Source of the DNA: a virus
IMG/VR virus record: IMGVR_UViG_3300028800_000028
Coordinates: 1-41,032 of that record
DNA: 41,032 bases
Strand: one strand, 5' to 3'
In this document: piece after piece, positions 4,216 through 41,032 of the stretch
Position numbering within the stretch: the first letter of the stretch is position 1
How the letters are laid out: every line of letters begins with the position of its first letter
Made by a program: the position numbers and the translations under genes
The notes under the pieces: model-generated
The model's database searches: none
What the model was told of the DNA's origin: nothing
What the model saw: the letters and a program-made list of their open reading frames with translations, nothing else

Positions 4216-4886
4216 TTCGGTTCTACCATTTCGACCAGCGCTCTGAAAAGTGGCACGCTATGCGTCGAGACAAGTGGAGTGGGTCTGTAGCAATTAAATT
4301 GCTCCAGGGCGCTAAAGTTCCACCAGTCTCTGACCCGACTTACGACAATAAATATATGCAGCGTGGCCGCATCCTTGAGCCACTAGCTGCTGAAGCGTAT
4401 GAGAAAAAGACTGGGCATAAGATGGCTCACTCCGGGCTGGTAACCAACTCGAAGTACAAGCACGCCTGCTACTCGCCGGATGGTATTGAGGAAGATATGA
4501 TTGACGAGATTAAGTGCGTGAATGTCGAGAAGCACATGGCTATCGGCAGCGGTGCCATGCCCATCCCTACCGAGTGGATTGCACAGACTCACTTCGGCAT
4601 CGTCATTACCGAGCTGCACAAAATCCGGCTCATCCTGTATAACCCCGATGCTGAGATACCGCTATTTATTCTGCCTATCGTCGTGCGCCAGGAAACGCTT
4701 GAAAACATTATTGCGCGTCTGATTGCTACGGCTCCTAAAGGTCGTCCAAGTGCCATCCGTGCCAAGCGCAAATACGTTGAGGACAACCCATTGAAGGTGC
4801 GCGAGAATCGCCGCAGGGCTTACCTAAAGAGCAAGCAGCATGAACATAAAAGTAGACCTGCCCGAACTCAATCCAAATCAGCGTAA
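4212..4886 (+). CDS. YqaJ-family (lambda exonuclease-type) nuclease
   Basis: A 224-residue PD-(D/E)xK nuclease. The N-terminus has RSEKWHAMR (10-18); catalytic residues are E56 in GRILEPLA, D90 in SPDG and the E99-x-K101 pair in IDEIK. This family degrades one strand of duplex ends to make 3' tails for annealing. With the Sak4-like ATPase and SSB-like protein it makes a complete phage recombination set, interrupted by the two endonuclease genes and the dehydratase. A basic tail (residues 180-224, rich in K and R) may bind DNA. Confidence 0.9.
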   Translation: MIRFYHFDQRSEKWHAMRRDKWSGSVAIKLLQGAKVPPVSDPTYDNKYMQRGRILEPLAAEAYEKKTGHKMAHSGLVTNSKYKHACYSPDGIEEDMIDEIKCVNVEKHMAIGSGAMPIPTEWIAQTHFGIVITELHKIRLILYNPDAEIPLFILPIVVRQETLENIIARLIATAPKGRPSAIRAKRKYVEDNPLKVRENRRRAYLKSKQHEHKSRPARTQSKSA

Positions 4887-4986
4887 GTGGCTCAAACGCG
4901 AGCTGCTGGCTATTACCAAAGCCTCTAGGGAGAAGGCGTTGCCGATTGCCTATATCGAGCATCAAATCGAAGAGTTATTTGGTTAA
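4840..4986 (+). CDS. Small hypothetical protein, 48 aa
   Basis: A 48-residue frame whose ATG lies inside the last 47 bases of the exonuclease gene. The protein (MNIKVDLPELNPNQRKWLKRELL...) is helical and amphipathic with no membrane segment. Overlap and operon position support translation, but no family is recognised. Confidence 0.5.
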   Translation: MNIKVDLPELNPNQRKWLKRELLAITKASREKALPIAYIEHQIEELFG

Positions 4987-17252: not shown

Positions 17253-17273
17253 AGGGAATTTGTCCTTATTGAC

Positions 17274-22011: not shown

Positions 22012-22557
22012 CTATTCTACTTCCAATCCTAGAGTTCTCTCGATACTCCAACCATGGTCATAAAATCTATGCCCAGCTTGACGGACTGTTGTGCGTCCCA
22101 CTTCTCTAACCCACTGAGTGAAAGTTTGCGTTTTGCCGTTGATAGTAAAGAGTCGATTGGATCTGCGGTTGTTCTGTTGGTCACTTCGAGTAGCCCACTT
22201 ACAATTCGATGGCTCGTAGTTACCATTATTATCTTTTCGCTCAAGCGACATCCCCTCTGGCCGCTCGCCCATATCTTCAAGAAAATTGGCGAAATCATTC
22301 CATCTGTTGCACACTGTGATGCCTCTGCCACCGTAATTCTTGTAAGACTTATCATTCGGGTTACGACATCGACCTTTCATTGCCGCGTAACTCCTATAGA
22401 GAGGATGACTGAATCTACCATCCTTGTAATTACTTGGTTTCTTTTTAGGGCGCTCCATATCAATGCCCTTACGATCGCGGTCGTAATGGAGAGAGCAAAA
22501 TCCCTTTTCATAGTATGGAGATTCACAACCGGATATACTGCATATTCTATTTGGCAT
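22012..22557 (-). CDS. AP2/HNH-type homing endonuclease before the nozzle gene
   Basis: A 181-residue protein. The N-terminus is a zinc finger (CSISGCESPYYEKGFCSLHY), the centre is YKNYGGRGITVCNRWNDFANFLEDMGERPEGMSLERKDNNGNYEPSNCKWAT (about 72-124), the signature of AP2-associated homing endonucleases, followed by a helix-turn-helix region (TFTQWVREVGRTTVRQAGHRFYDHGWSIERTL) for DNA binding. Ribosome site GGATAGG precedes the ATG. Only 1 base separates it from the next gene. Confidence 0.87.
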   Translation of the reverse strand: MPNRICSISGCESPYYEKGFCSLHYDRDRKGIDMERPKKKPSNYKDGRFSHPLYRSYAAMKGRCRNPNDKSYKNYGGRGITVCNRWNDFANFLEDMGERPEGMSLERKDNNGNYEPSNCKWATRSDQQNNRRSNRLFTINGKTQTFTQWVREVGRTTVRQAGHRFYDHGWSIERTLGLEVE

Positions 22558-22565
22558 ATTAATAC

Positions 22566-23318
22566 CTATCCGTTTAGATAGTTCCCTCCGATATCACTTA
22601 AATCATCAGGCATAGCGTCATCGTCCATAGAAGTACCCCCGTTATCCTGAATAGCGGCAGCAAGTAGTTTATCATAACGAGTCTCTATTAGACTAGCCAA
22701 GCCACCTCGAACGAGGTCAGGTGGCAACTGGTCTTTGGCTACGCCTAAGATTAAGAGCTTGGGAGGGGTTACGGTCTGGAGCAGTGTGCTGTCCGTCATG
22801 GTGAGCTGTGGTATCCATGCAATCGTATCGGCCACGATAGTGCCGTTCAATTCATAGTCCTTCGGTGGGCGCGAGAACGTCAGGATACCATTGTCAAACA
22901 TCACGTAATCCGGCCCATTGTAGCCGTCGTTGTTGAGGTTGATGGTGTAGCGAGGGTCGGCCTGAATTTGGTCAGGGTCTACGATTGTCCACTTGGAAAC
23001 AACCACGCCGTCCTGCTGGATAGTAAGCAGACGCTGAGGGTGATAAATCAGCTTACGGATAGTTGAGTCGAGCGCATATTGTACGGTGTTAGCACTGATG
23101 GTGCCTATCGTATTGTTGTTGGTGCGTAGATATTTCCAGTCAGCAGCCAGCTCTAAATCTGAGGCAAAAAAGTTTGTCCACGTAATGGTGTCAGCCAAAA
23201 ATTGCTGCAAATCAGTACCGGTAACATCGTTATCAATACCATGCGTTTGGAGGTAGACAGCATTGGCAAAATATGGTATATCTATATTCGCGTTCCCTGT
23301 AAAAATATTCGGATTCAT
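22566..23318 (-). CDS. Tail tubular protein A-like / head-tail adaptor
   Basis: A 250-residue virion protein between the large internal protein and the nozzle gene, the usual place of the tail tubular A (gp11-like) gatekeeper. It is of suitable length and mixed alpha/beta, with helical ends (GIDNDVTGTDLQQFLADTITWTNFFASDLELAADW and PPDLVRGGLASLIETRYDKLLAAAIQDNG). The acidic C-terminus is MDDDAMPDDLSDIGG. Assignment rests on order and size. Overlaps the HNH stop by 4 bp (ATGA). Confidence 0.6.
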   Translation of the reverse strand: MNPNIFTGNANIDIPYFANAVYLQTHGIDNDVTGTDLQQFLADTITWTNFFASDLELAADWKYLRTNNNTIGTISANTVQYALDSTIRKLIYHPQRLLTIQQDGVVVSKWTIVDPDQIQADPRYTINLNNDGYNGPDYVMFDNGILTFSRPPKDYELNGTIVADTIAWIPQLTMTDSTLLQTVTPPKLLILGVAKDQLPPDLVRGGLASLIETRYDKLLAAAIQDNGGTSMDDDAMPDDLSDIGGNYLNG

Positions 23319-28038: not shown

Positions 28039-28965
28039 CTAAGAATTATCTTTAGTGATAGACAGCGCTGAATTAGTTGGTGTCAAGCCAGCTGCTGGAG
28101 CTACCGGCGTGGTGCTGGGCTGGTTGTTCGCGAGCTTAACCGTGAACGGACTATTCGCTCCATAAGACGCCGTAGTAGCCTGCGAAACCGGAGTGACAGT
28201 AGGAGCAATGGGAGATATGGGAGCAGTATTAGCGACAGCAAGAGGCAGGTATTGTTTATACAATGAAGTATCACCAATGCTATTTGCTTGGTCGAGCAAG
28301 TCCTGGTACCCAGTAGCCTGTGCGCTCTTCTTATCAGCGTCGAGTGCTGTACCCAAATTAGCATTATCCTGATTATAGCCATTATCATAGCCAAGTTGTG
28401 CTTGCTGAATCGCGTTCTTGTTCGTTTCGTAGGTCTGATTGCCTGAACCGATATCGTTATTAGTAGTGTTAGCAACTGCACGTCCGGCCAGAATAGAGCC
28501 AGTACCGTTCAACGCACCGAGACTAGCGAGTACAGCATCAAGCCCCTGTAACCCTTGCGCACCAGCTGTCTCTGCTTGCTGGACTGATTGGGCACGACCC
28601 TCAGTATTATTGACGAGTTGAGTACCATATTGTGCATCACCGTTTGCCTGGTTCGCGTTATTCGTTGCGAGAGCCGTGTTGTAGTTACCTGTATATCCAG
28701 CAATATCGTTAGCGATAGACTGGAGCACCCCGTTGATAACGTCAGGAGAGAGAGTGCCGCCACCACCACTTGTAGTATTGCCTGAAACAGTAGCGCCACC
28801 TGTGGGCGCAGGCTGAGCGGTAGGAGCAGCAACTGCCGGTTTATTAGTCGGCACACTAATCGTATCAGTGTTTGGAGTATTAGATACCCCTAGAAAAGTA
28901 CCACTTGGTTGTGGTGCAAGACTAATGCTACCTGTATTGGGAGTATTGAGTACTGCCAATGCCAT
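28039..28965 (-). CDS. Internal virion protein, 308 aa
   Basis: A 308-residue protein of low complexity at both ends: an N-terminal Thr/Pro/Ala region with a repeated NTPNTxxIS motif (LNTPNTGSISLA and SNTPNTDTISVP), a helical Gln/Asn/Ala-rich middle (about 80-235) and a Pro/Thr-rich tail. It directly precedes the 1300-residue ejection protein in transcription order, so it is probably a second ejection/internal protein. Ribosome site AGCAGG. Confidence 0.6.
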   Translation of the reverse strand: MALAVLNTPNTGSISLAPQPSGTFLGVSNTPNTDTISVPTNKPAVAAPTAQPAPTGGATVSGNTTSGGGGTLSPDVINGVLQSIANDIAGYTGNYNTALATNNANQANGDAQYGTQLVNNTEGRAQSVQQAETAGAQGLQGLDAVLASLGALNGTGSILAGRAVANTTNNDIGSGNQTYETNKNAIQQAQLGYDNGYNQDNANLGTALDADKKSAQATGYQDLLDQANSIGDTSLYKQYLPLAVANTAPISPIAPTVTPVSQATTASYGANSPFTVKLANNQPSTTPVAPAAGLTPTNSALSITKDNS

Positions 28966-28967
28966 GA

Positions 28968-29147
28968 CTATTTACCTGCTAATTTCTCAAAAGTCTGTGC
29001 TAGACGAGCTTCCTTGCCTAATTTGCCACCAGCAGACGATTTCTCAGCAGCATACTTTGGTACGCTCATGCCAGCTTTCTTAGCCTTAGCTGTGAATAAG
29101 CCTTTGTGAGAAGGGATTACCGCGCTTTGCATCCATTTATTTGCCAT
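28968..29147 (-). CDS. Small basic virion-region protein, 59 aa
   Basis: A 59-residue basic protein (MANKWMQSAVIPSHKGLFTAKAKKAGMSVPKYAAEKSSAGGKLGKEARLAQTFEKLAGK). Small basic proteins with this MANKWMQ...KAKKAGMSVxxYA...ARLAQT pattern occur in many phages beside structural genes, function unknown. The ATG at 29147 is preferred to one 6 bases upstream because TACAAT ends exactly 6 nt before it. Confidence 0.7.
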   Translation of the reverse strand: MANKWMQSAVIPSHKGLFTAKAKKAGMSVPKYAAEKSSAGGKLGKEARLAQTFEKLAGK

Positions 29148-29182: not shown

Positions 29183-29405
29183 TCTTAGTCTTAATTCTAT
29201 GACAATTTTCGCAAAGCATTTGGAAATTCGACTTGTCCCAATAGGGGCCGTCATAGCGCCACATTGGGATGATATGGTCTATTGACCGCTTAATTCGAGG
29301 CACCCAGTCGCCGCAGATACGACAAAATCTGAATCGGTTTAAATAGGTTTTACGTTCAGCTTTAAATAAGGGGTCGCTATCAGCCTCTTTATGGTAGCTT
29401 GACAT
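29160..29405 (-). CDS. HNH endonuclease, 81 aa
   Basis: A compact HNH protein with CRICGDWVPRIKRSIDHIIPMWRYDGPYWDKSNFQMLCENCHRIKTKIEG. The CxxC...DHI...N...LCxxCH pattern is the minimal HNH fold seen in McrA-type and packaging-associated nucleases. The ATG at 29405 has AAAAAGGG before it and is chosen over a GTG at 29426. It overlaps the end of the 175-residue gene. Unlike the others, its size and place near the head of the late operon would also fit an HNH nuclease that helps packaging. Confidence 0.8.
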   Translation of the reverse strand: MSSYHKEADSDPLFKAERKTYLNRFRFCRICGDWVPRIKRSIDHIIPMWRYDGPYWDKSNFQMLCENCHRIKTKIEGAPML

Positions 29406-30362: not shown

Positions 30363-31301
30363 ATGTGGAAAGAAACAATAAGCTTACTAACAGCAAGAAT
30401 CACCATCTTGCCAGAGAACGACCCCAAAAAGCCTTACTACAACCCAAGCCTGGTGCGCTACAAGGGAAAGCTCTTAATAAGCATCCGCAGTAGCACCTGG
30501 ACACTCGGCCCCGGTGGTCGCTACACCAGTCTCACGCAGGACAAACTGCACACTGACGTGTTGCTCGGTGAGCTGGATGAGAAAACGCTTACCGTTAAAA
30601 ACCTCCGAAAATTGGCCTATAAGGGCGAAACGAACGATTATATCGACAATACCGGCTTAGAGGACGCAAGATTGTTCGTTCGGGATGACAAGCTCTATGC
30701 CATCGGCTGCTGCATGTCCGACACCAACCGAGCCGCCGAGACAGTTTTTATGGCAATCGGTGAAGTCAAAGGCGACGAACTATGGATGCAAGGTGTCATG
30801 CCAAAACCGTACAAAGACCGCATCGAAAAGAATTGGACACCGCCAGAGGTAGCCACTGACAAATTCGACTACATCTACTCGCCTACCCAAACGATTAAGG
30901 ATAATGTACTCCAGGGCGAAATTGAGTACCACGGGCTGTTGCATGGCGGCTCACCCGCTCTTGAATGGGAAGGCGGTTGGCTGACGTTCCAGCACAAAAT
31001 ACACCGCGCTCAGCTGCCCGGCACTACCGGCCTACGCCAATACTGCAACTACGCCATCAAGCACAATGCTGACGGTATCGCCACGGAAATTAGCCAGGGC
31101 TTCTTGCTCTTCGCTGACAACTGCGTTGAATTTATCTCTGGTGCCATCAAAGCCTCCGATGGACAGCTGCTAATCGGCATGGGTTATGGAGACGCGCATG
31201 CAGTACTTGCCGTAATCAACCCAGACGATTTACACTTCGAGCCGTATGACCCGCGTAGCGAAGCGATCAGGGCTTACTTACCGGATGTACGTCAAAAATA
31301 G
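30363..31301 (+). CDS. GH130-like five-bladed beta-propeller protein, copy 1
   Basis: A 312-residue protein resembling GH130 mannoside phosphorylases/hydrolases. Motifs are YNPSLV (26-31), GLEDARLF (98-105, carrying the family's catalytic-acid ED pair and R103), EKNWTPP (155-161), YSPTQTIK (172-179) and HGGSPALEWEGGWLTFQHKI (194-213). A paralogue at 34576-35559 has the same motifs in the same order. GH130 enzymes split beta-mannosides, usually with phosphate; activity here is inferred. It is a lone + strand gene with its own promoter, overlapping the VRR-NUC gene tail to tail by 35 bp. Confidence 0.72.
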   Translation: MWKETISLLTARITILPENDPKKPYYNPSLVRYKGKLLISIRSSTWTLGPGGRYTSLTQDKLHTDVLLGELDEKTLTVKNLRKLAYKGETNDYIDNTGLEDARLFVRDDKLYAIGCCMSDTNRAAETVFMAIGEVKGDELWMQGVMPKPYKDRIEKNWTPPEVATDKFDYIYSPTQTIKDNVLQGEIEYHGLLHGGSPALEWEGGWLTFQHKIHRAQLPGTTGLRQYCNYAIKHNADGIATEISQGFLLFADNCVEFISGAIKASDGQLLIGMGYGDAHAVLAVINPDDLHFEPYDPRSEAIRAYLPDVRQK

Positions 31302-32118: not shown

Positions 32119-32382
32119 TTATAACTTATACTGCTCAACATACTCGTTGCCCTTAGAGCTACGACACCATCCAGAGCCAGCCACTTCACCGTCTTCGGTC
32201 ATTAGCCCACGCCAAAACTCAATCATGTCGTGCTTTTTTAATTCTTTGATGGCGACCATGTTCTCAGGTGTCTTGCCGCCAATGCCGTTGTACCCCACGC
32301 AGTACTCGCTAGTCGAATACATTGCCACCAGTGCGTCCTCGGCTGCGACGCTAAGGAACCCACTCGATACTTTTTTACTCAT
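32119..32382 (-). CDS. Hypothetical protein, 87 aa
   Basis: A small protein (MSKKVSSGFLSVAAEDALVAMYSTSEYCVGYNGIGGKTPENMVAIKELKKHDMIEFWRGLMTEDGEV...) with ribosome site AGGAGAG before a doubled ATG; the second, at 32382, is better spaced. The mix of helices resembles a small globular enzyme inhibitor or winged-helix protein but nothing is recognised. It lies between replication and methyltransferase genes. Confidence 0.6.
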   Translation of the reverse strand: MSKKVSSGFLSVAAEDALVAMYSTSEYCVGYNGIGGKTPENMVAIKELKKHDMIEFWRGLMTEDGEVAGSGWCRSSKGNEYVEQYKL

Positions 32383-33125
32383 CATTTCTCTCCTATTATC
32401 CTCTTAGTTATTTCCTGTGATTCCGGCGCGAGTCTGACTACCCACATGTTAGTGACCGCCTCATTCTCAGCTATCCATACACCATCCACCAGATGCGCGT
32501 TCATAGGCGCTTCCAGGGTGTGATAATCGTCTATAAAGACATCGTGACCACCAAGCACCTTAATGACCTTCTCCAGCTGCCCCTCAATCTGTAAAAATAT
32601 CTCCTCGATAGCGTTTGTGTTGCCGTCGTGAGCAATCACCAGCAGGTTGGCAGCTATGATTTTCCGCACACTAGCGTTCTTTACACTAAGCCCAGCAATC
32701 GGTAATTTCTTATCGACAGCGGCGCGGTAGGTTAGTATTGCCTGGACATCTGCCTTCGGCAACCGGCGCAGGGCATCTAAGGTGACACGTAGCGAGCCTG
32801 CAACGTCCGAGGTAACCGGAGGGTCATCATCGGGCAGCTCAAGCTCAGGAACGCCAGCAGTAGCCATCAGCTCGCGTGGTGGGCTGGCATTGTGGTAGCG
32901 CGTGTAGAACTTCGGCGTGTCGAAGCGGATAGGTATAGGCTGCTCGCCCTCCAGCCGCTCAAATGCCAGGTGGATTGCCCGTGTGCTCTTGGCATGACAA
33001 CATCTATCGAGCAGCGCCGCAACCACCTTGGCATCGGCATTTATACCGTCGCTATCGCCTATCAGCTTGAATTGCTTGTAGTCGAGCACGAGCATTGTGT
33101 CAAGTAGTTTAGTCAGGGATGGCAT
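32382..33125 (-). CDS. Hypothetical protein, 247 aa (terminase small-subunit/DUF5681-like segment)
   Basis: A 247-residue protein. Residues about 27-62 (DAKVVAALLDRCCHAKSTRAIHLAFERLEGEQPIPI) resemble the helical AxxLLxxAxxGDxxAxxxixxRlEGkp segment of DUF5681/small-terminase-like proteins. The rest, including a helix-rich region at 105-190, is not recognised. It directly follows the SF3 helicase with a 17-bp overlap, so a role in replication is equally possible. Call is tentative. Confidence 0.45.
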   Translation of the reverse strand: MPSLTKLLDTMLVLDYKQFKLIGDSDGINADAKVVAALLDRCCHAKSTRAIHLAFERLEGEQPIPIRFDTPKFYTRYHNASPPRELMATAGVPELELPDDDPPVTSDVAGSLRVTLDALRRLPKADVQAILTYRAAVDKKLPIAGLSVKNASVRKIIAANLLVIAHDGNTNAIEEIFLQIEGQLEKVIKVLGGHDVFIDDYHTLEAPMNAHLVDGVWIAENEAVTNMWVVRLAPESQEITKRIIGEK

Positions 33126-34497
33126 CTAATAGCTCCTGTAAATTTGACTTGGCTGGCCGCGTTTCAGCATAATCCTGCGGCGCATTTATCTGCCGGTAAA
33201 GGCCAAGCCGCATCCCTCCAATCAGCTCTAGGTCAGTGAATGTGTAGCCCTTTTTCACGTAGCGCTTGATGAGCCTGCTCTCTTCGCCGCGCACTGAGGT
33301 CGCGTGGAAATCGTAATCCTCAGTGGCCCGGCGCAGGTGCTGGTTACTGAGCGCCGTGTAGCCATTGTCGATGCACCAATTCTGGTAATCGGTAAAGAGA
33401 TTCCCGTAGGTGTTGAAGCCAAAAATGTACTGGTCGTTCAGCTCGTCGAGGTAAGTGGTCGCGCTGTTGGTGCCGACATCGTAACGCTCTTTCACCTCGG
33501 CGGTATGGTCGTCAAATTTGTAATGATAATCTTGTGCCTTGAGCTGTCTGGCCCACTGCACGAACAGGCCCAAATGCTGCTCATAAAACTCCTTGGTGAA
33601 TGTCCGGTCAATGAATGTCGGGTCGTCGGCAAACTTCGCCTCAAACGGGATGATAAGCGTGCGCCTGCGAGCACCGTCACTCTTATCCGCGAACGTCGGG
33701 ATATTGTTGCAGGAATAGAGGTGGTGCAGCGAGCCATCAATCATAACGCTCTGCTGCGAGTGGAATTTATGCACCGGGAAATCCTCGTGCGTACCGATGG
33801 ATTTGTAGGCTTTGGAGTCCTCAATATAGCCGTCAGATGACTCCTTCACTACGTTCGCCAGGTTGCCATTCAGCACCGGCGCGTCGCGCTCGTCCTCGAT
33901 TTGCTTGATGGTCAGGTTCGCTATGAAGCCGGGGAATAGGTCGTAAATCACCTGCGCCAGCGTGGTCTTGCCGTTGCGCCCAGCACCCTTCCACCAGATA
34001 ACACCAGCCGGTTTGTAGGCCAGAAATATGGGTGCGATTGTCTGCATAATAGTGCCGTAAATCTTGTCATCTCGCTTGGCAATATCGAGCACAAATTCAC
34101 TCACTTCAGGCTCTAATTGGGGCGTATATCGCGTCGCAAAAACACAGTCCTCAGCGGCAATATCCTGCGTAAATTCAACCGCTTTCGTATCCCAGACAAG
34201 TTGTCCCATACGGATATATTGGCTGTATTTTGTGAGGTCGGGCGTGCCAAATTGCATGTAATCCCAGACCTCATTGACGCGCGTTTTAGCGGCCACGCCA
34301 AGCAGTTCATACGCCTTGATTCTGAAGTAATCCTCGGTGATTGGTTGCCAGTAGCCGTTGTCAGCCATGTACACTAACGACCCCTTGAATCGGGCCACTC
34401 TAAGGCTCTTCCCAATGCGAGCAATATCGAGGGTTTTAATCTCCTCTTGCTTACTCTTTGCCGCTGTCGTTTTCTTTGGTACCTGCGCGTCTGCCAT
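33109..34497 (-). CDS. SF3 helicase (D5-like replicative helicase)
   Basis: A 462-residue protein of the D5/SF3 group. Walker A is GAGRNGKTT (171-179), Walker B-like LANVVKESSDG (about 214-224), motif C region HHLYSCNNIPTFADKSDGARRRTLIIPF (about 257-284, N..P plus arginine finger). The C-terminus (350-450) is a winged-helix-like domain of the poxvirus D5 type. The N-terminal 130 residues show no recognisable primase motif. It would unwind the phage origin; no polymerase is encoded, so host replication enzymes must be recruited. An extended -10 TGTTATAAG is present upstream (about 34530). Confidence 0.85.
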   Translation of the reverse strand: MADAQVPKKTTAAKSKQEEIKTLDIARIGKSLRVARFKGSLVYMADNGYWQPITEDYFRIKAYELLGVAAKTRVNEVWDYMQFGTPDLTKYSQYIRMGQLVWDTKAVEFTQDIAAEDCVFATRYTPQLEPEVSEFVLDIAKRDDKIYGTIMQTIAPIFLAYKPAGVIWWKGAGRNGKTTLAQVIYDLFPGFIANLTIKQIEDERDAPVLNGNLANVVKESSDGYIEDSKAYKSIGTHEDFPVHKFHSQQSVMIDGSLHHLYSCNNIPTFADKSDGARRRTLIIPFEAKFADDPTFIDRTFTKEFYEQHLGLFVQWARQLKAQDYHYKFDDHTAEVKERYDVGTNSATTYLDELNDQYIFGFNTYGNLFTDYQNWCIDNGYTALSNQHLRRATEDYDFHATSVRGEESRLIKRYVKKGYTFTDLELIGGMRLGLYRQINAPQDYAETRPAKSNLQELLDAIPD

Positions 34498-34575: not shown

Positions 34576-35559
34576 CTAAAGTAAAAAGCCAGCAAATGGC
34601 TTCTGTCCGGCGTGTGCTTTGACGATTTTTTTGAGGCTGTCATCAATTGCAAATTGATGATAATACCCCCCCGGTTCCTGCCATTTCAAAGCCTTAACCG
34701 GCAACCTCACGAAGCCACATGTCTCATCACGCACCCCTAAACTGAGCAGCAATTCCTCGTCTTTTTTCGTCCAAATTGCGCCACTCACATACTCAACTGA
34801 CTCCTGCAAATTCTCGCGCCAGCCGGTGCCGAAATCGAAGAACTGGCTAATGTGCGTGACCTTCCCGTTGTAGTCGTGCAGCCGCGCTACAGTGAGGTAC
34901 CAGCGCCACGTCAAACCGACCACTGGAGTAACCCGGTGGGCTATGCTAATCCAGCCCTTTTTGTACGGCAATAATTGGCTACCACCATGAATCTCGCCCT
35001 TGTACGATTCGCCCTTGCGTGGCCGTCCGTATTTCACGACCTCTGTCATGGAATAAATGAAGTCAAATGCCTCGGTAGTCTGCGTCGGTGGCGACCAATT
35101 TTTCTCGGTGTGCTTGTACGGCTGGCCGTAGTCATGTAGCAATTTGTAGGTGCCCTGGTCGTAGTTAATCAAAATCTCGCCCTGGGTAATACCTTGCGGC
35201 GTGAATATAACGCCGATGCCATGCAGCCCATCGTAGCGCCAGAAAATCCGCACATCCTCGGTACCGTGCTTCAGCAAGAACTCAGGGCTGCCAGCTTCGG
35301 GCGTAATAAGCTTAAGGTCTGTGACGGCAAGAGTCGTCTCGTTAAGACGACCAACCATGAACCGGCTCGCCTCATTCGCATTCGGGTTATCCGGGTCGAG
35401 ATGCACCGTTAAAGGTAGGAGATCGTGGTGCCGCACGCCTATCCAAACATTGTCCTTATCATCTCTCGTAATAGTCGGATTGTGATTCCATGCTGGTGCC
35501 TCGTGTGGCTCCCACATAGTTACTGGCAAATCCAGGTGCTCAATCGTCCCTATTTTCAT
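34576..35559 (-). CDS. GH130-like five-bladed beta-propeller protein, copy 2
   Basis: A 327-residue paralogue of the gene at 30363. It has HNPTI (26-30), GTEDVRIF (99-106), EKNWSPP (152-158), YSMTEVVK (169-176) and HGGSQLLPYKKGWISIAHRV (191-210), all spaced almost as in copy 1. The catalytic ED pair and KNW are kept in both, so both are probably active. The ATG at 35559 follows AAAGGGCGACGAA. A 40-bp tandem duplication just upstream repeats the start region (MRIRTIEH versus MKIGTIEH). First gene leftward of the origin-like region. Confidence 0.72.
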   Translation of the reverse strand: MKIGTIEHLDLPVTMWEPHEAPAWNHNPTITRDDKDNVWIGVRHHDLLPLTVHLDPDNPNANEASRFMVGRLNETTLAVTDLKLITPEAGSPEFLLKHGTEDVRIFWRYDGLHGIGVIFTPQGITQGEILINYDQGTYKLLHDYGQPYKHTEKNWSPPTQTTEAFDFIYSMTEVVKYGRPRKGESYKGEIHGGSQLLPYKKGWISIAHRVTPVVGLTWRWYLTVARLHDYNGKVTHISQFFDFGTGWRENLQESVEYVSGAIWTKKDEELLLSLGVRDETCGFVRLPVKALKWQEPGGYYHQFAIDDSLKKIVKAHAGQKPFAGFLL

Positions 35560-35615
35560 TTCGTCGCCCTTTCGTGTGCTCAATCGTCCTTATTCTCATT
35601 TCAGCGTCTTTCCGT
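35536..35615. repeat. 40-bp imperfect tandem repeat over the start of GH130-like copy 2
   Basis: Two units, 35536-35575 and 35576-35615, match at 33 of 40 positions. Each holds a purine-rich ribosome-site-like stretch and an ATG (35559 and 35599) followed by codons for MKIGTIEH or MRIRTIEH. The upstream copy runs 19 codons and stops, so it is a decayed duplicate of the gene start. Confidence 0.75.
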
Positions 35616-35880
35616 GATTATGGCAATCATTGTATCACGATACCTGCCTGCGGCGGCCAGCCTGTAATGATTCATGAGAATCTGTAGCGAGAATGGTGGC
35701 GCAGCGTAGACCGTAATACTTTTATTACCTAAACCTTTCGTTAAAATTTTTTCCGCGCCTTATTGTGATATATATAACAACAGTTTTCAAAAACAGCCGC
35801 CCCCAAAATCATAACTATAGTGTTTATGCTATGTATGGTAGTTTGTTTTGGCATTGAATGATAACAACAATACATAATAC

Positions 35881-36072
35881 GAACAAAATACGAACATACA
35901 TAAATGAATGTATCATTCACTGTATACCAGCATTCAGACTATAGTTATATATATACACTACAGGGGTGGTACAGGGGTGAGATATGGGTATGCTATTATT
36001 AAAACTCACATATAAGATATATATATATATGGTTTACATAGAAAGAAAGTATCATTCGTTCGTATTTTGTTC
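35881..36072. repeat. Inverted repeat, 15-bp arms 162 bp apart
   Basis: GAACAAAATACGAAC at 35881-35895 and its perfect complement GTTCGTATTTTGTTC at 36058-36072. A further AATACGAACA lies just upstream as a direct repeat, and TATCATTC flanks both arms. Confidence 0.75.
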
Positions 36073-36130
36073 GCTCCAACACCTAAAAGAAAACCTACTA
36101 TAAAACAAACAGACAAAACTACAATAGCAT

Positions 36131-36199
36131 TTTACACTGGTTTACATTACAAATTTATCACCAACATTTTAGCAAGGATGTTATGTAAACCAGTGTAAA
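36131..36199. repeat. Inverted repeat, 17-bp arms with 35-bp loop
   Basis: TTTACACTGGTTTACAT (36131-36147) and ATGTAAACCAGTGTAAA (36183-36199) are perfect complements. The loop has a smaller nested pair, AACAT and ATGTT. Possible binding sites for an initiator or regulator, or a cruciform. Confidence 0.85.
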
Positions 36200-36225
36200 T
36201 CAATATCACTACTCACAAATTAATA

Positions 36226-36254
36226 TTGCCATTTACTACATTTACAACTATACT
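36226..36254 (+). promoter_or_regulatory. Main rightward early promoter
   Basis: TTGCCA (36226-36231), 17-bp spacer, TATACT (36249-36254); one mismatch in each box. The transcript has a leader of about 20 bases with AGAGGAG before the ATG at 36283. Confidence 0.78.
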
Positions 36255-36282
36255 ATCATTGTAATAAGTAAGAGGAGAATAC

Positions 36283-36562: not shown

Positions 36563-36591
36563 TTGACATGATACTAAGTGTTAGGCATACT
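36563..36591 (+). promoter_or_regulatory. Leaderless promoter with TTGACATGATAC motif, HNH gene 36598
   Basis: TTGACA (36563-36568, perfect -35), 17-bp spacer beginning TGATAC, CATACT (36586-36591), then AGTGTT and the ATG at 36598: 6-nt spacing. The first 12 bases are the motif shared with 36896 and 40019. Confidence 0.75.
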
Positions 36592-36597
36592 AGTGTT

Positions 36598-36885
36598 ATG
36601 ACACCAAATCAAGTAAACGCTTTGCACCAATATGTCAGACGACACAAACCTATACCTGATAAATGCGAAGAGTGTAACGATAGAGAAGCGTTAGACCTTG
36701 CAAATATCAGTCCAAGCTATAATCCTGATACTTATACTAAAGACATTAGCAACTGGCGTTATTTATGCCGTAATTGCCATGTGAGGTCAGATGGTAGATT
36801 AGCCAAAATGCATGAATCATTATGGTTAAAGCCACGTAAAAGAGACATGAAAACAGGGAAATTCATTAAAACTGTGCATAATTAG
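36598..36885 (+). CDS. HNH-like endonuclease of early region, 95 aa
   Basis: A 95-residue protein with CEECNDREALDLANISPSYNPDTYTKDISNWRYLCRNCHVRSDGR, a compact HNH-type zinc core (CxxC...LANISxxY...DxxxWxxLCxxCH) like that of the gene at 17299. The ATG at 36598 is chosen over an ATG at 36568, which lies inside the -35 box; the promoter is placed so that 36598 is +1. AT-rich codon use differs from the virion genes. Homing or regulatory nuclease. Confidence 0.75.
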   Translation: MTPNQVNALHQYVRRHKPIPDKCEECNDREALDLANISPSYNPDTYTKDISNWRYLCRNCHVRSDGRLAKMHESLWLKPRKRDMKTGKFIKTVHN

Positions 36886-36895
36886 TATGATACGC

Positions 36896-36924
36896 TTGAC
36901 ATGATACCTTGTCTGTGCTAGACT
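36896..36924 (+). promoter_or_regulatory. Strong early promoter with TTGACATGATAC motif
   Basis: TTGACA (36896-36901), 17-bp spacer, extended -10 TGC-TAGACT (36919-36924). It drives a transcript with a leader of about 170 bases before the gene at 37100. ATGATAC is also repeated 16 bp upstream. Confidence 0.8.
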
Positions 36925-36928
36925 GTAT

Positions 36929-37099
36929 GTAGGTTAAACGATAGGACGAATAACAAAGCTATTTAGCAGTTACCTACAATCTACCTACCAGATAATCGTA
37001 AGAAATTGCCACCTACATGTAGGTCACTAGCAGAAACAGCAACGAGTACCGCTAGTAACGATTACCCAAGCTTTCAATAAATCAAGGAGTACACCCACA
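36929..37099 (+). promoter_or_regulatory. Long leader with repeated ACCTAC/GTAGGT elements
   Basis: The untranslated leader between the promoter and the gene at 37100 holds five copies of one hexamer: GTAGGT at 36929, ACCTAC at 36972 and 36983 (11-bp apart), and the perfect palindrome ACCTACATGTAGGT at 37011-37024. A further stem ACTAGC/GCTAGT follows at about 37025-37055. These could be operator sites for a repressor or an RNA structure that controls translation. AAGGAG lies 13 bases before the ATG. Confidence 0.55.
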
Positions 37100-37276
37100 A
37101 TGAGCCGCAAAATTACCAACATGCACGTCGTAAGTGATGACGCAACATTGATTCACACGCAAGGCGGCCAGGCCGTAGCACTTGGAACTATCGAAGAGTT
37201 TGACGGTAAGAAATACCGCGTAATTGATAACTCAGCTTTTAACATCGTAGTTACCTACGAGCCAGTGGAGGAATAA
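37100..37276 (+). CDS. Early hypothetical protein, 58 aa
   Basis: A 58-residue protein (MSRKITNMHVVSDDATLIHTQGGQAVALGTIEEFDGKKYRVIDNSAFNIVVTYEPVEE), likely a small all-beta fold. CAAGGAG lies before the ATG. It stands behind the strongest promoter of the early region and a long structured leader, so it is probably made in quantity. Its own role in regulating that leader is conceivable. No family recognised. Confidence 0.6.
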   Translation: MSRKITNMHVVSDDATLIHTQGGQAVALGTIEEFDGKKYRVIDNSAFNIVVTYEPVEE

Positions 37277-37281
37277 CCCGA

Positions 37282-37557
37282 ATGATAACAACATCAATTA
37301 ACCCAAGCGCTTTACGCTACCTAGCGGATGAGCGTGGTGAAAATGCCGATGATTTTAGCACTAGCATGATTCACGGCTACCACTTTATAAGCACGCCTAG
37401 CCACGGCTATCTAGTTTTAGGTTCCGATGATAACGGCTACAGTGACGCATTAGCAATTTGCCGCAAGAGCAATTACAGTTACCTTCTTAATACGCTGGTG
37501 TTTTTGGAAGAGGATTGCGACGCTACAGAGTTTTTAGCGCTAGGATTGGATAACTAG
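37282..37557 (+). CDS. Early hypothetical protein, 91 aa
   Basis: A 91-residue acidic protein (MITTSINPSALRYLADERGENADDFSTSMIHGYHFISTPSHGYLVLGSDDNGYSDALAICRKSNYSY...), with ribosome site GGAGG in the end of the preceding gene and start 5 bases after its stop. No membrane segment or zinc site. Family unknown. Part of the 37100-38381 cluster of small early proteins, a common place for host-takeover or anti-defence factors. Confidence 0.6.
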   Translation: MITTSINPSALRYLADERGENADDFSTSMIHGYHFISTPSHGYLVLGSDDNGYSDALAICRKSNYSYLLNTLVFLEEDCDATEFLALGLDN

Positions 37558-40811: not shown

Positions 40812-40994
40812 ATGGCAAAATTTGAACTACACTATAATCAAAGCGTCGGTTACGACGACAAGGTTGAGATTGATATTCGGCTCGAAAGCCGACCAACCAA
40901 AGCCGAATACCAGGAAATGTTAGATGCTATTGAGACGCTTAACAAGGTCGCACAAAAATATGTGATAATTCCACCGAAAGAGGCGAAAAAATAA
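40812..40994 (+). CDS. Small hypothetical protein, 60 aa, spanning the contig join
   Basis: A 60-residue acidic protein (MAKFELHYNQSVGYDDKVEIDIRLESRPTKAEYQEMLDAIETLNKVAQKYVIIPPKEAKK) with AAGGAG before the ATG: three short strands followed by a helix. Its 3' part is repeated at the window start. Stop and next start overlap (TAATG). Related in its first strands to the 46-residue protein that follows it. Confidence 0.65.
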   Translation: MAKFELHYNQSVGYDDKVEIDIRLESRPTKAEYQEMLDAIETLNKVAQKYVIIPPKEAKK

Positions 40995-41032
40995 TGGAAG
41001 TCAATGAATTGACGCTTAAAATTGAGCTGAAC
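40906..41032. repeat. Terminal direct repeat, right copy
   Basis: Exact copy of bases 1-127. Joining the two copies yields a circle of 40,905 bp. Confidence 0.9.
40994..41032 (+). CDS. 5' part of the 46-aa protein (duplicate of 89-229)
   Basis: The first 13 codons of the 46-residue protein, cut by the window end. The complete copy is at 89-229. Confidence 0.75.
   Translation, partial: MEVNELTLKIELN

Follow-up and report, generated by a model that had tools for sequence, protein, structure and literature searches.

A conserved cluster of GTTTACA repeats at a candidate replication origin of an uncultivated phage

The divergent intergenic interval at positions 35616–36282 (no strand assigned) of the window, which is the whole 41,032-nucleotide stretch of viral DNA analysed here, is almost certainly a conserved and functional cis element. 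Judged from its sequence, it is probably an iteron-type replication origin of the phage. This reading follows from the clusters of GTTTACA sites, which are kept at the same place in three relatives. An origin had been proposed here in an earlier note, and that interpretation has held in part: the clustering of GGTTTACA is kept and a skew minimum lies nearby, but the inverted repeats and the ACAGGGGTG words that the note showcased are not kept. It is very rare for the replication origin of an uncultivated phage to be known. In this case the motif, the layout, and the likely initiator can be named for such a phage from sequence alone.

The window carries a terminal direct repeat of 127 bp (1–127 = 40906–41032) and is therefore a complete genome, which as a circle measures 40,905 bp. 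The AT content of the interval is 67%, compared to 53% for the genome, and the AT-richest 300 bp of the genome, at 35989, fall inside it. The 667-bp segment contains no plausible gene. The genes on the helicase side are on the minus strand and those from 36283 onward are on the plus strand, so transcription diverges from the segment, and its description in the earlier note as gene-free, AT-rich, and divergent is correct. No cluster of DnaA boxes has been found within the interval, an Rfam scan matched no RNA family, and the early leader at 36930–37108 folds no better than shuffled sequences (z 0.27).

A search of IMG/VR with the phage SF3 helicase returned L001 (87%), L002 (75%), and L003 (73%), and a DNA pattern search for the Walker box returned a fourth relative, L010, which is 63% identical over the helicase. 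The window genome is referred to as G000, and the records of the relatives were read as G001–G004. The G001 record stops short of the interval, and the interval comparison comprises the window, G002, G003, and G004, with the G002 and G004 coordinates given in the orientation of the window. All three relatives have a divergent AT-rich interval at the same place. Over most of its length it does not align with the window sequence, which makes the words that are shared informative. The distant relatives L035, L037, and L038 (helicase 36–39%) have another gene arrangement and no comparable GTTTACA cluster; in L038, a 5' leader at 559–634 follows a sigma-70-like promoter and has TGTATACA words in both arms of a long inverted repeat. 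No additional relative holding the interval came from a search with the SNF2-type helicase, and a DNA search among annotated phages gave no match. No bacterial genome found by search encodes a close relative of the helicase. The GDP-mannose dehydratase, considered as a clue to the host, has matches of only 42–48% in many phyla and assigns no host.

The repeated word was identified by ranking 6-mers for enrichment in the interval relative to the remainder of each of the four genomes, with no motif given beforehand. GTAAAC/GTTTAC is first and TGTAAA/TTTACA is second. The counts of GTTTACA inside and outside the interval are 3/2 in the window, 4/4 in G002, 5/2 in G003, and 7/4 in G004. The four intervals together hold 19 copies where 1.5 are expected, and the maximum in 2,000 simulations is 7. 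A chance origin of the GTTTACA iterons is refuted by this clustering in four genomes. The strongest single result comes from a matrix trained on G002, G003, and G004 alone, with training sites picked by their GTTTACA core. The sites at 36031, 36139, and 36182 are the top three of the entire window genome, and since no training site was taken from the window, this ranking is a held-out test. Three copies of GGTTTACAT had been noted earlier, at 36031, 36139, and inverted at 36183; all are present, and the genome has no others.

The GTTTAC/TTTACA sites are grouped in blocks with 78–105 bp between them, and within this pattern the sites occur in both orientations with variable spacing. The blocks are at 28786–28860, 28965, and 29061–29088 in G002, at 4470–4477, 4565–4581, and 4662–4720 in G003, and at 22386–22453, 22531–22539, and 22623–22654 in G004; this three-block grouping was drawn by eye once the sites had been seen. 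The window has blocks at 36032 and 36131–36199, with no GTTTACA block to their left. A pair of iteron sets with AT-rich DNA between them is clear in G002 (five inverted sites, then four direct sites), and the other genomes have three blocks (G003 and G004) or two (the window). Block B of the window, CACATATAAGATATATATATATATGGTTTACAT (36006–36039, plus strand), consists of an AT stretch, the presumed unwinding element, followed by the GGTTTACAT iteron at 36031–36039 (plus strand). It aligns with G002 28941–28979 and G003 4540–4575 (0 of 500 simulations in each case) and weakly with G004 (P 0.2). The AT stretch ACATATAA...TATGGTTTACA around the 36031 block, on the left of the middle block, is kept in the window, G002, and G003. 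Thus, short sites clustered beyond chance lie next to an element that is AT-rich by composition, contains a conserved AT block, and is predicted to unwind, as is characteristic of iteron origins.

The base preceding the core differs among the genomes. G000 and G002 have G there in each of their seven sites, and G003 and G004 have T in 11 of their 12 sites. L027 (4200–5860), a fragment of a fifth relative, has GTATACA instead of GTTTACA at the same place. Since this fragment is without its helicase gene, a drift of the site alongside the helicase is suggested at most. A broader proposition, which we hold tentatively and consider rather doubtful, is that a lineage of phages lacking a polymerase and any recognisable primase initiates replication at an iteron origin that is modular and built of three blocks, and that the site drifts with the initiator from GGTTTACA in G000 and G002 to TGTTTACA in G003 and G004 and GTATACA in L027. 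If true, the drifting sites would form a natural series showing how the DNA specificity of an SF3 helicase shifts, and the G/T difference before the core would provide a handle on origin recognition by such helicases.

The candidate initiator is the SF3/D5-type helicase (DUF5906) encoded at 33109–34497 on the minus strand. Upstream of the helicase start, the gene at 34576–35583 comes first and the interval follows at a distance of ~1.1 kb. By family assignment, the helicase belongs under DUF5906 and phage primase/helicase families. Among solved structures, 7ola alone is a significant match (E 5.5e-16, residues 114–414), and this match reaches the C-terminal part, including the start of the C-terminal domain, which places the protein with the Rep helicases of the SaPI5/D5 type. 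The structure record of 7ola says “DNA primase”, and we take it to be the SaPI5 primase-helicase (PriRep). The AlphaFold model of the phage helicase (pLDDT 36) is too poor for a fold search or a fold check of the DNA-binding domain. A conserved protein whose gene overlaps the end of the helicase gene (32382–33125, minus strand) is a possible replication partner, and its model (pLDDT 40) is likewise too poor for a fold search. The proteins encoded at 34576–35583 and 30363–31301, beside the replication genes, are related copies, with 34–36% identity between the two kinds as measured in the relatives.

A search of the genome found no DNA polymerase of family A, B, or C and no AEP Prim-Pol, in agreement with the earlier statement that the phage has no DNA polymerase gene. 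In the proposed mechanism, the helicase would bind the GTTTACA iterons, most likely by its C-terminal domain, and would assemble on block B (36031) and block C (36131–36199). The AT stretch at 36006–36030 beside block B would then melt, allowing the helicase to load. A host primase and polymerase would be recruited, the phage being without a polymerase or a recognisable primase. The Sak4-like annealing protein and the YqaJ exonuclease of the phage could aid later recombination-linked replication, and the presumed origin would be flanked by divergent promoters.

As a probable origin, the interval resembles those described for other mobile elements. The alpha protein of phage P4 is an SF3 helicase whose C-terminal part binds short repeats (ori/crr) and which uses the host polymerase. 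P4 alpha itself includes a primase domain, and the repeats it binds differ in sequence from those of the window phage. The closest helicases among annotated phages are those of the primase/helicase modules of Lactococcus phi31 (pri31), S. thermophilus, and Paenibacillus phages, with just 23–28% identity over the helicase core in a comparison by helicase alone. SaPI Rep and SCCmec Cch2 bind iterons through the C-terminal domain (PMC7581432), and the origins of PICIs have an AT-rich region between two iteron sets, just 3' of rep (PMC6092414). The window phage shares with SaPI/PICI elements a sequence-related SF3/D5-type helicase, as indicated by 7ola, and short iterons clustered around AT-rich DNA. 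However, the SaPI origin is directly downstream of rep, whereas the window interval is upstream of the helicase with another gene in between, and for this reason membership in the SaPI/PICI group is not claimed. Also, SaPIs and PICIs are satellite islands, whereas the window is a complete phage genome in which no primase domain or AEP primase was found. The helicase of SCCmec, Cch2, is of the same broad family, and its C-terminal domain makes the specific binding, which relies on a few direct repeats (PMC7581432). Unlike in the window phage, Cch2 is accompanied by the CCPol-MP polymerase/primase and its binding site, at a putative origin, is directly downstream of cch2 (PMC7581432).

The GC skew, which the earlier note had suggested as a check, is compatible with the origin reading. 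In the window, the cumulative skew reaches its minimum at 37,493, to the right of the interval by 1.2 kb; the minimum is at 29,317 in G002 (42 bp past the interval), at 4,952 in G003 (inside the interval), and at 23,250 in G004. The distance from the interval is thus 0–1.2 kb in each of the four genomes. This is also where transcription diverges, which can account for such a minimum, and the skew is therefore not decisive. The skew maximum is 0.49 of the circle away from the interval in the window, 0.43 in G002, and 0.29 in G004, the fractions for G002 and G004 assuming circularity since these records have no end repeats. The maximum of G004, at 33,726, coincides with the point where transcription converges (34,080). 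When leading- and lagging-strand genes are separated, the skew at four-fold degenerate sites favours the presumed leading-strand genes in three of three genomes (P 0.04, 0.02, 0.08), although other origin placements do as well or better in G000 and G004. This result is weakly favourable to the replication reading.

Promoter-like elements flank the iterons. The GCCGCCGCAGGC element (35646–35657, minus strand), a presumed leftward promoter element at the left edge of the interval, has the core CCGCCGCAGGC and occurs as a single copy in each of the window, G001, G002, G003, G004, and L027. Where a TATAAT-like -10 box is visible, the element is 11–16 bp upstream of it, with no -35 TTGACA; it may serve the leftward operon as an activator site. 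A second leftward promoter-like block, GGGGCGG ... TTGAAA-17-CACAAT (35762–35803, minus strand), is conserved in G002 and G004. The rightward promoter of the early operon is TTGACATGATAC-TAGACT (36896–36924, plus strand), and similar promoters are located at G002 29115, G003 4774, and G004 22706 (TTGACAGCGATAC), and also in L027.

These promoters keep alive the main rival to the origin reading, namely that the GTTTACA sites are operators through which a phage or host regulator controls the leftward promoters as well as the early promoter on the right, and that the interval is merely a divergent regulatory region. The elements are conserved on both flanks, the rightmost iterons of G002, G003, and G004 precede the rightward promoter by roughly 40–100 bp, a zone where operators sit too, and the 17-bp perfect palindromic arms of block C would fit dimeric binders. 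We regard this explanation as unlikely but deserving of serious weight. The spacing and orientation of the sites differ among the relatives over about 220–380 bp, which is unusual for operators, and a conserved AT block lies beside the central site; also, no DNA-binding regulator (HTH) has been recognised among the proteins scanned. It is less likely still that the helicase has a dual role, starting replication at the iterons and regulating the flanking promoters, although initiators commonly double as regulators and the sites are both near the rightward promoter and within the presumed origin. If this dual use is counted in, an origin becomes more probable than stated above.

Some of the features that first drew attention to the interval are particular to the window phage. 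Two long perfect inverted repeats are present, and they are the only ones of at least 14 bp within 667 bp in the whole genome. The first (35880–35895/36058–36073) has arms 162 bp apart, as had been described, but these are 16 bp long and not 15. Its left arm is included in a segment (35877–35895, plus strand) with two ATACGAAC words 11 bp apart, and its right arm is GTTCGTATTTTGTTCG (36058–36073, plus strand); from the left segment, TTCGTATTTTGT is also present in G003 but absent from G002 and G004. The second has the 17-bp arms and 35-bp loop reported in the earlier note. It forms block C, with a left arm TTTACACTGGTTTACAT (36131–36147, plus strand) of two TTTACA words 10 bp apart and a right arm (36183–36199, minus strand) with the two words inverted. 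Two copies of ACAGGGGTG, in tandem one helical turn apart as claimed (35960–35979, plus strand; 35960 and 35971, an 11-bp step), occur nowhere else in the genome. Neither the inverted repeats nor the ACAGGGGTG tandem has a counterpart in G002, G003, or G004, so that of the repeats put forward, the GGTTTACA clusters are what the relatives share. The iterons of G004 make inverted repeats of their own (15 and 12 bp).

This absence from the relatives would fit chance repeats in an AT-rich spacer. Such an explanation is highly improbable for the interval, since GTTTACA clusters are found in four genomes and none of 2,000 order-1 and 2,000 order-2 Markov sequences gave a 17-bp inverted repeat; for the ACAGGGGTG pair, chance is possible. 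An attP integration region is hardly credible, for although tandem sites at 10–11-bp spacing resemble the arm-type sites of integrases, the genome search for a tyrosine integrase was negative while the control search matched in 14 of 14 genomes.

The TTGACATGATAC promoter is found at 36563 as well as at 36896, and the two copies flank a small HNH ORF (about 36601–36885) that looks like an insertion with a duplicated promoter. Further copies of this promoter are at 17269 and 40019. Between the structural genes at 1241–30323, the window has many free-standing HNH endonuclease-like ORFs, two of them recognised by Pfam (HNH_3) and the rest by eye.
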